A stretch of 64,000 nt of DNA. Source: Oceanimonas pelagia. Its GTDB lineage: Bacteria; Pseudomonadota; Gammaproteobacteria; Enterobacterales; Aeromonadaceae. The position numbers and the translations under genes are program-made. Shown piece after piece: positions 4,969 through 51,498 of the stretch (positions are counted from its first letter, which is position 1; each line of letters opens with the position of its first letter). The stretch spans positions 2,937,501-3,001,500 of the forward strand of contig NZ_CP118224.1 of assembly GCF_030849025.1 (NCBI RefSeq), given 5' to 3'. The notes beneath the pieces were generated by a model, which was given only the letters and a program-made list of their open reading frames with translations, ran no database searches and was not told the DNA's origin.

Positions 4969-5086
4969 GTGAATCGACAGCAGGGCTACCTGCGCCGACA
5001 CGCTTCAGGCCCATCCCTGGGGCGCTCGGCAAATGCCATCCCTGGCATTTGACGGTCGGCTCCGGCAATCCCTGCTGCCGCTTCAC
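4969..5086 (+). repeat. Structured intergenic repeat, copy A
   Basis: A 118-nt element. The outer arms 4969-4985 and 5070-5086 are complementary with three mismatches (GTGAATCGACAGCAGGG against its partner). Inside are a GCCGAC/GTCGGC stem (4994-4999 with 5055-5060), a CCCA/TGGG hairpin, and the perfect hairpin AAATGCCATCCCTGGCATTT at 5031-5050. It shares the inner core with copies B, C, D, E1 and F but has its own outer-arm sequence. Confidence 0.85.
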
Positions 5087-18859: not shown

Positions 18860-19117
18860 GTTGTGTAATCATCTCCGTTTAACAACAAACGCCTCCCCTT
18901 GAATAACCGTCACCTCTGCCAAGGTACGCCACCCTCGCGAAGGCGGGGATCTATGGCATATCGCACTGGACTCCCGGCTTCACCGGGCGACCACATAAAA
19001 ATGCCCCTGCTGGTGCTTCGCAATCCGATCCCAACAGGCGACTTTCCGCCCTGTGCAATCGGCCTTTGCCCTTGATGGTGTTACACTTGCGTCCATCATT
19101 TTTACGGAATCAGTACT
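18860..19117. other. gltD-mtn intergenic region
   Basis: About 258 nt without a gene. It holds a partly degenerate extragenic palindrome (18932-18988) and, to the right, the upstream region of mtn. No clear promoter consensus was found. Confidence 0.6.
18932..18988. repeat. Degenerate extragenic palindrome
   Basis: Left arm CTCGCGAAGGCGGGGATC and right arm GGACTCCCGGCTTCACCGGG are roughly complementary around a loop containing GGCATATCGCACT. The pattern resembles the GAAGGCGGGAATC-type extragenic palindromes seen in many proteobacteria. It differs from the structured repeat family found elsewhere in the window. Confidence 0.5.
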
Positions 19118-22255: not shown

Positions 22256-22367
22256 GGCGGAAGCGGGGAATTGCCGGAGCCGACCGTCACATGCCATGGA
22301 CGGCATGTGCCGAGCATCCCATGGATGGGTTCGAAGCGTGTCGGCGCAGGTAATCTCCGCTGATGCC
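22256..22367 (-). repeat. Structured intergenic repeat, copy B
   Basis: 112 nt, reversed relative to copy A. Outer arms 22256-22275 and 22349-22367 pair imperfectly, with G-U pairs. The inner GCCGAC/GTCGGC stem is present. The hairpins are CCCATCCATGGG and a variant with arms ACATGCC/GGCATGT. It lies between the convergent TRIC and tyrS genes. Confidence 0.8.
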
Positions 22368-27721: not shown

Positions 27722-27836
27722 CGAAGCAGTGGCAGGGTTACCTCCACCGACACGCTGCAAGTACATCCTTGTAGCGCTCGGCAAATGCCATCCCTGGCAT
27801 TTGACGGTCGGTTACGGTAATCCCTGCCACTGCTTC
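27722..27836 (+). repeat. Structured intergenic repeat, copy C
   Basis: 115 nt and the cleanest copy. Outer arms CGAAGCAGTGGCAGGG (27722-27737) and its complement near 27821-27836 pair almost perfectly. The inner stem is ACCGAC/GTCGGT, hairpin 1 is TACA/TGTA, and hairpin 2 is AAATGCCATCCCTGGCATTT. It lies between convergent hemL and the glyoxalase-like gene, where no ordinary terminator was seen. Confidence 0.88.
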
Positions 27837-27890
27837 GCTCAATCTGGTTCTAGTGCCTGTAGGCTCTGAAACTTCAGATATTCTCCATGC

Positions 27891-36290: not shown

Positions 36291-36484
36291 GCGGTGATAA
36301 CCGGGATTGCCGTATTCGACCGTCACATGCCAGGGATGGCATGTGCCGAGCGTCCATGGGGCGAGTTTGCTCGCCGCGACGAAGTAAAAAAGCCTGACCG
36401 AACATTGAGTATGTTCGCAGCAGGCTTTTTTGTTGAGTGGCATTTAATGAAGCGTGTCGAAGGAGGCAACCCGGTTATCGCTGC
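36291..36484 (-). repeat. Structured intergenic repeat, copy D (long form)
   Basis: 194 nt, reversed. Outer arms GCGGTGATAACCGGG (36291-36305) and CCCGGTTATCGCTGC (36470-36484) pair at 13 of 15 positions. The inner stem is TTCGAC/GTCGAA; the constant hairpin is a variant with ACATGCC/GGCATGT arms. Hairpin 1 is replaced by an inserted module of about 85 nt: a GGCGAG/CTCGCC hairpin and the hairpin at 36386-36431. Confidence 0.85.
36386..36431. terminator. Nested hairpin, probable bidirectional terminator in copy D
   Basis: An 11-bp stem AAAAAAGCCTG/CAGGCTTTTTT encloses a 24-nt loop that itself forms a CGAACAT/ATGTTCG hairpin. The A6 and T6 flanks make it terminator-like in both directions between convergent thpR and sfsA. 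The loop is 23/24 identical to the long-form copy at 45770-45815, where the stem sequence is different but still paired. Confidence 0.75.
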
Positions 36485-45465: not shown

Positions 45466-45581
45466 CGAAACATCAGTGCGGTTGCACTCCGCCGACACGC
45501 TTCAAGTACTTCCTTGTAACGCTCGAAAATGCCATCCATGGCATTTTATGGTCGGCTTCGGCAATCCCCACTGCTGCTTCG
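45466..45581 (+). repeat. Structured intergenic repeat, copy E1
   Basis: 116 nt. Outer arms CGAAACATCAGTGCGGTTGC (45466-45485) and the region 45561-45581 pair with a few mismatches. Inner stem GCCGAC/GTCGGC; hairpin 1 TAC/GTA-based; hairpin 2 AAAATGCC/GGCATTTT around ATCCAT. Same orientation as copy A. Confidence 0.82.
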
Positions 45582-45630
45582 AGTAACCTCGGCATCGCCT
45601 GCATGCAGTCAGCTCAGTACATTCTGAGGA

Positions 45631-45865
45631 GGACAAAGGGTGTCTGCTTCGCCGCGCCCTCTGCGCCATGGCCGAAAATTGCTCCTGCATGTTCGGCATT
45701 CCCGCCATCCCTGGCGGTCAGATGCGCAGTGGAGCCCCCATGGGGCGAGCCTGCTCGCCGTAACGAAATGTTTCAGCCCGACCGAACATTCAGTATGTTC
45801 GCAGCGGGTTGAAACATTGAGTGGCATGTCATCACGGCGTGCCGGAGAAGCAGTGCGCTTTGTCC
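45631..45865 (-). repeat. Structured intergenic repeat, copy E2 (long form)
   Basis: 235 nt, reversed, only 49 nt after E1. Outer arms begin GGACAAAGGGTGTCTGCTTC (45631 onward) and end with its near-complement at 45865. The constant hairpin is diverged (CCGCCA/TGGCGG). The inserted module shared with copy D is present: GGGGCGAG...CTCGCC hairpin, then a 13-bp stem ATGTTTCAGCCCG/CGGGTTGAAACAT (one G-U pair) around the near-invariant 24-nt loop at 45781-45804. Confidence 0.78.
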
Positions 45866-51399: not shown

Positions 51400-51498
51400 A
51401 CAAGGAGAGCGGCTTCACGACCGATCAAATGCCAGGGATGGCATTTGCCGAGCGACCCACGGATGGGCTTGAAGCGTGTCGTGAAGTCGGCTCCTTGT
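51400..51498 (-). repeat. Structured intergenic repeat, copy F
   Basis: 99 nt, reversed, the shortest copy. Outer arms ACAAGGAGAGCGGCTTCACG (51400 onward) and 51478-51498 pair with few mismatches and run directly into CACGAC/GTCGTG. Hairpin 1 CCCA/TGGG; hairpin 2 AAATGCC/GGCATTT around AGGGAT. It lies 32 nt beyond the 3' end of cysH. Confidence 0.85.

Follow-up and report, generated by a model that had tools for sequence, protein, structure and literature searches.

A widespread family of folded intergenic elements in Oceanimonas and related genera, with a conserved two-hairpin core and covarying outer arms

What kind of element occupies seven intergenic sites within 64 kb of the Oceanimonas pelagia genome, each able to fold into an elaborate hairpin structure? 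The window, that is, the whole stretch of 64 kb analysed here, belongs to a chromosome of 3.59 Mb assembled as a single contig. A sequence-only reading had taken the seven copies for one architecture, either a REP/MITE-type element or a structured RNA. On re-inspection, all seven were located where that reading had placed them (Table 1). Copies A–D, E1 and F, termed type I, match a covariance model over their full length with 83–136 bits and do share one architecture. E2 turned out to be a related type II, which is inverted, has expanded hairpins and is linked to type I by weak matches to the model. Neither do all copies have the same size and shape, since D and E2 carry an extra hairpin of about 80 nt in tip 1, and tip 2 of E2 is longer as well.

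Table 1. Coordinates of the seven elements and of the parts of copy C (window numbering)
Feature	Coordinates	Strand	Remarks
Copy A	4969..5086	+	Type I, compact; divergent gene pair
Copy B	22256..22367	-	Type I, compact; convergent pair
Copy C, whole element	27722..27837	+	Type I; model extent; convergent pair
Copy C, left outer arm	27722..27747	+	
Copy C, core	27748..27810	+	CGAC...GTCG with both hairpins
Copy C, hairpin (tip) 1	27753..27776	+	From the fold
Copy C, hairpin (tip) 2	27783..27802	+	Preceded by CGTC on the other strand
Copy C, right outer arm	27811..27837	+	
Copy D	36291..36484	-	Type I, long tip 1; convergent pair
Copy E1	45466..45581	+	Type I, compact; E lies in a tandem pair
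Linker	45582..45630	.	Joins type I to inverted type II
Copy E2	45631..45865	-	Type II, tips 1 and 2 long
Copy F	51400..51498	-	Type I core, different arms; tandem pair

Type I elements consist, in order, of an outer arm, CGAC, hairpin 1, GCTCGG, hairpin 2, GACGGTCG and the second outer arm; hairpin 2 of copy C has a 9-bp stem and a 4-nt loop in the RNA fold. At E, type II lies inverted about 50 nt beyond type I, and the same arrangement recurs at several other loci. Long tips, present in D, E2 and other copies, extend hairpin 1 by about 80 nt and hairpin 2 by about 50 nt, and long tip 1 includes a stem followed by a T-run. Two further copies in the same genome (L241, about 1440-1570, and L245, about 1410-1560) resemble fusions in which the left half of type II joins the right half of type I via a long tip, as if they had arisen by recombination within palindromes.

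Copy C used as a blastn query yielded 30 matches in its own genome, and 20 compact copies out of these served to build both the covariance model R1 and A1; A2 comprises only matches at E <=1e-12. The training copies include A, B, C and E1, so that D and F are the only independent window copies. R1, whose E-values are rough, returned 54 matches in the own genome at E <=0.1, some of them representing both strands of one copy. Such a model search of this genome and its relatives, which the sequence-only reading had proposed, yields about 45 family loci in the chromosome when R1 and long-tip matches are taken together, and further matches in related genera. The window holds 6 of the 45 loci in 1.8% of the chromosome, and a 1.19-Mb interval around contig coordinate 0, picked after looking, contains 26 of the 45 (binomial p 0.0007). 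In the relative G032, three model matches fall inside 1.8 kb (L081), forming a local cluster.

The compact copies A, B, C, E1 and F fold better than dinucleotide shuffles, with z ranging from -3.1 for B, the weakest, which 1 of 200 shuffles equals, to -11.3 for C, the strongest. The flanking base pairs that had been described as changing in step (GC/GC, AC/GT, TT/AA, CA/TG) do so in the window copies. Among 99 distinct model matches, 98.1% of 3354 cells are paired and 26 of 34 pairs show changes on both sides, in a set that was selected and aligned by the structure model and is thereby biased towards pairing. Both-sided changes occupy 299 cells, a count that none of 500 shuffles reaches (mean 64) and that drops to 14-31 with the pairing slid; these cells count sequences rather than events, and the copies are related. 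The 20 copies that were found by blastn and aligned by MAFFT agree, with 650 of 676 cells Watson-Crick and 61 changed on both sides, next to 7 G.U and 12 A.C. The earlier claim that compensated changes preserve the fold is thus borne out.

How freely the arms vary is best seen in five distant genomes (8 copies in G246, 5 in G095, 7 in G143, 6 in G299 and 5 in G310). Identity between copies is 0.86-0.93 for the core of about 50 bp, 0.57-0.80 for the arms and 0.53-0.57 for shuffled arms. Inside one copy, the arms are 0.91-0.98 complementary, a figure that is partly built in, because distant arms were located by complementarity, with G:T and A:C penalised alike. Pairing was therefore re-tested with cores chosen by sequence alone: own arms are at least 0.8 complementary in 51 of 54 cases (mean 0.93), whereas arms combined from two genomes reach 0.8 in 0 of 227 (mean 0.42). 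The pattern used for this is strict and finds no core in 21 of 72 distant loci. Across nine copies in G246, the 32-nt arms show 71% identity from copy to copy and 93% complementarity inside a copy; both sides have changed in 43 of 288 cells, and the exceptions to pairing are 16 A.C, 1 G.T and 2 other. One G246 element used as a query together with its flanks matches 11 other places in that genome, over about 57-60 bp of core only. Arms of the Oceanimonas group are more similar and fall into subfamilies. Alongside its main core subtype, G246 has another (GCGCTATTCGCCATCC...), which comes with arms of its own (L282, about 432; L291, about 484 and 1126).

An exact 29-mer covering hairpin 2 and its flank occurs in 17 stretches from Oceanimonas, Oceanisphaera and Zobellella. 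In a sample of the family, examined with stricter filters and at most 60 scored candidates per genome, R1 matches at E <=0.001 were found in 36 of 61 genomes: all 23 of the own genus, 11 of 11 in g3, the one of g2 and 1 of 3 in g5. None of the 23 genomes of the sister genus g4 had a match at this threshold. Within the class, at least 23 of 274 genomes, including the own one, match at E <=1e-6 and span 20 families; the matches in the at least 22 other genomes are more diverged, and with about 13 candidates scored per genome these counts are lower bounds. In 14 distant genomes that were inspected (12 families besides the own), the primary sequence of the core is shared, including the ATCC loops and GCTCG, and these elements are therefore not mere look-alikes of the fold. 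Copy C has no match in a plasmid collection, and the distant core has a single 25-nt match among plasmids, in a 1.8-Mb Halomonas record; the distant core was not found in phages, nor an exact 28-mer of it in viral contigs. With plasmid, phage and viral-contig searches nearly empty, horizontal carriers are not evident, and a plasmid- or phage-borne element is unsupported by them.

Placement between genes, likewise part of the original description, holds for all loci: none of 45 lies inside a gene according to a rough gene caller. Twenty-six sit in tandem, 18 in convergent and 1 in divergent pairs, as against 172 tandem, 32 convergent and 31 divergent among all adjacent gene pairs of the same stretches, element-bearing ones included; divergent pairs are avoided. 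In the window, the neighbours are a glycine-transporter family gene and a tRNA-synthetase (W/Y type) gene for copy B, a class-III aminotransferase gene (hemL in our reading) and a glyoxalase-family gene for C, a LigT-family gene and sfsA for D, and a cysG-like gene and a PAPS-reductase gene for F. Orientation within tandem pairs is unbiased (10 co-oriented, 9 opposed). Relative to the nearest reading gene, 25 elements point the same way and 10 the opposite way (p 0.017), a skew that is probably a geometric artefact because the linker and type II sit on the 3' side; conclusions on orientation are drawn from the tandem pairs alone.

Orthologous sites differ between species in the tips, the presence and the orientation of the element. 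In 5 of 7 comparisons (A, D, E2, F and one of the two orientations of C) the arms are the same but the tip switches between short and long; no such switch is seen for E1 or for C in its other orientation. Thus, the orthologue of A in G010 combines unchanged arms with a long tip 1, those of D in G010 and G017 combine them with a short tip, those of E2 in G006 and G001 have short tips, and that of F in G010 has long tips 1 and 2. Simple internal deletion is not supported, by eye, as the source of short tips at D and F, where the short tip is not the long tip minus a piece; the short tip of copy A aligns with the 3' part of the long tip. No tip donor could be named, the best matches of long tips being scattered over several genomes.

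At the hemL site, where the own genome (G000) and G010 are 93% identical over the hemL query, 6 of the 17 readable genomes among the 23 of the genus carry an element and 11 have none. It lies in one orientation in G000 and G006 and in the other in G010, G017, G001 and, as a rearranged copy, G048. The element at site B is present in G000 only among the six genomes compared, without a counterpart in G010, G048, G006, G017 or G001. Similarly, G246 has core and arms at a site where G105, of the same genus, has the flanking genes and lacks both. No base-exact empty site or target duplication was seen at the orthologous sites compared; intergenic divergence is too great for a base-exact empty site, and insertion, loss and recombination are therefore indistinguishable at any one site. 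Element ends differ between copies. At window positions 18862-19005, elements are found at the corresponding site in G006, G010, G048 and G026, and G000 has in their place a different 142-nt stretch with small hairpins.

Mismatches in the arms are strand-asymmetric. In the orientation of the model, the arms of the genus set contain 42 A.C and 6 G.T, with 12 arm columns carrying A.C and 5 carrying G.T; two distant sets show 30 A.C against 5 G.T (32 elements) and 21 against 7 (26 elements). Since A.C on the model strand corresponds to a G.T or G.U wobble on the opposite one, the arms act like one strand folded back on itself. Deamination of C alone is insufficient to explain the excess, because it persists at 8 to 2 and 7 to 0 in arm columns with A-T as the commonest pair. 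It follows from this asymmetry that the folding of one strand on its own is of importance. The core of the genus set has 16 G.T and 2 A.C, with 8 of the 16 G.T from one column, and this excess is not accounted for by one folded strand. Pooled over arms and core, 22 G.U and 44 A.C are found in 3354 cells.

The same wobble bias, also in the A-T columns, would be expected if the strand opposite to the model encoded a structured RNA, for example a 3'-UTR stabiliser or a processing site, in which the arms need only pair; the copies lie between genes and mostly downstream of one, as such an RNA might. RNase P of the same genus, however, evolves differently. In 23 genomes it shows 306 G.U and 1 A.C among 2734 cells, given a structure derived by RNAalifold from those 23 sequences, which disfavours A.C, and wobbles make up 11% of its pairs as against about 3% in the element arms. 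Its Watson-Crick switches comprise 76 transitions and 1 transversion (1 of 77), those of the element 188 transitions and 111 transversions (111 of 299). Orientation in tandem pairs shows no bias either (10 to 9). Rfam 15 gives no match in the window at gathering score, by which a known Rfam RNA is rejected, and E-value searches at the elements return sub-threshold matches only. A structured RNA is thus an unlikely explanation. The differences between sites, both tandem orientations, the 188:111 switches and the scarcity of intermediates favour a DNA element; from the original alternative, a repeated, fold-conserved, REP/MITE-like intergenic element stands, and the strand-specific arm wobble leaves room for a role as RNA.

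Scarce intermediates (299 both-changed cells versus 86 wobble or mismatched ones) and common transversions would equally be produced if the family were palindromic debris without function, held complementary in its arms by template switching, or quasi-palindrome correction, and spread by rare recombination. Template switching makes and keeps hairpins and is a source of paired changes, according to the sections of PMC8794818 that concern it. Symmetric correction, however, predicts no strand-asymmetric arm mismatches, and neither a core sequence conserved across families nor both orientations at one intergenic site would follow from it; we judge debris improbable. Bidirectional terminators or insulators between genes would fit the preference for convergent (18 of 45) over divergent (1 of 45) pairs, as well as the stem and T-run of long tip 1. 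Yet the compact window copies have no T-run, a terminator scan of the D and E regions found none at D and one near E outside the elements, and at site B a terminator-like hairpin distinct from the element stands next to it. A terminator role is thus unsupported by the scan of these two regions, and we consider this explanation very unlikely.

For the favoured reading, a mobile DNA element, the nature of a mobilising enzyme was addressed by a survey of Y1_Tnp only, in which none was found. At the 21 Y1 loci examined, out of 69 matches listed, no R1 match lies within at most 1.5 kb on either side. The own genome has a single Y1_Tnp match, which is partial, contains an in-frame TGA (L041 1501-1710; G000:C1:966965-967174) and has no element within 1.5 kb. 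Five of the 23 genomes of the genus lack a Y1_Tnp match and have 3-52 R1 matches. A RAYT-driven REP is not supported on these grounds, namely the absence of copies at the 21 Y1 loci and the presence of R1 matches in genomes without Y1_Tnp. With GTAG REPs and REPINs, whose copies flank a RAYT (Y1) gene (PMC3733652; see also PMC3116915 and PMC2817692), the family does share the form of miniature chromosomal intergenic palindromes, often in inverted pairs.

The closest known kind are the CGTC-tagged REPs. In the sections of PMC3733652 that describe them, these have no dedicated transposase and occur mostly as inverted dimers; the CGTC-1 dimers of H. neapolitanus lie inside a 41-bp palindrome. They are defined there by an unpaired CGTC (or TGTC/CCTC) tag, a stem of 8-9 bp with a loop of 4-5 nt, a free-standing unit of 20-40 bp and a 3-nt tail, mostly CCA. 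Our family resembles them, within the same sections, in having CGTC ahead of a hairpin with a 4-5 nt loop and an A-T first pair (Oceanimonas group), in its inverted paired units, in its intergenic location outside divergent pairs and in the lack of a dedicated transposase. GACGG, that is, CGTC on the other strand, is present in 89 of 101 model matches, and 22 of 26 distant elements carry GACG at the end of their core; the stem and loop of hairpin 2 in copy C lie within the published range. Several features differ from the published description. The last C of the tag is paired here (columns 155-228: C-G in 88 of 99), and no exact hairpin stands by itself in the own genome, where its 33 matches at 23 positions are all (23 of 23) in compound elements detected by the model. 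The hairpin belongs to a three-way junction with a second hairpin, arms of about 15-45 bp that covary per copy, and exchangeable tips, and the tail in the window copies is GCC or CCG, depending on how the closing pair is counted, instead of CCA. The family therefore works like CGTC REPs and is probably related to them, and we do not call it a member. To this extent the sequence-only reading, which recognised no named family, needs amending: there is no Rfam match, but a close kind exists that it did not name.

A looser parallel is offered by the hairpin elements of sponge mitochondria, which, in the parts of PMC2800124 devoted to them, are intergenic, hairpin-built, sometimes with multiple hairpins, and thought to be mobile. 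As presented there, these double-hairpin elements are organellar and lack a common core with covarying free arms. An insertion-sequence MITE would have fixed terminal inverted repeats and a target-site duplication; in the family, the ends vary from copy to copy, and no base-exact empty site was found. Integron attC sites are recognised as one folded strand, with structure conserved more than sequence; their outer boxes are conserved and the inside is variable. Recognition as a folded strand would be the likeness to our family, in which the layout is reversed, the inside being conserved and the arms variable. Core strings were absent from the text of open-licence PMC papers, and no description of the element family was found in this literature; the family is real and widespread, and we did not find it described there.

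We consider it about an even chance that the family consists of REP-like, non-autonomous, chromosomal mobile DNA elements that are recognised as a folded single strand. The folding strand would be the complement of the model strand, on which the order is CGTC, hairpin 2, hairpin 1. It would form a three-way junction, in which the two-hairpin core is closed by CGAC/GTCG and held by a stem of about 15-45 bp. The sequence-constrained core may be the part that a putative enzyme recognises, and the arms, constrained mainly to pair, would drift rapidly in step. Movement would occur as a folded single DNA strand via an enzyme acting in trans, and the pairing of the arms would be renewed by selection at mobilisation together with hairpin-templated repair. 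Mobility of a folded single strand is the best-supported mechanism, although neither an enzyme nor an insertion event was seen; the failure to find an enzyme or to see a base-exact empty site or target duplication, the carriers that are not evident and the G.T excess in the core all count against the mobile-element reading.

More tentatively, the matches in 20 families may represent an unnamed superfamily of folded single-stranded DNA sites, whose two-hairpin core is read by a putative recombinase acting on single-stranded DNA. If so, the arms would be free as long as they pair, arms and tips would change while the core persists, and the sites would mirror integron attC sites in their layout. 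That CGTC-type REPs have no known dedicated transposase (PMC3733652) makes them puzzling; here, the combination of a fixed core, covarying arms and strand asymmetry allows a prediction of the folding strand and of the part to which an enzyme would bind. Strong covariation alone is no proof of an RNA, and the family serves as a warning example. It can also serve as a natural experiment for telling apart covariation that is due to RNA selection, to DNA folding or to template-switch repair.
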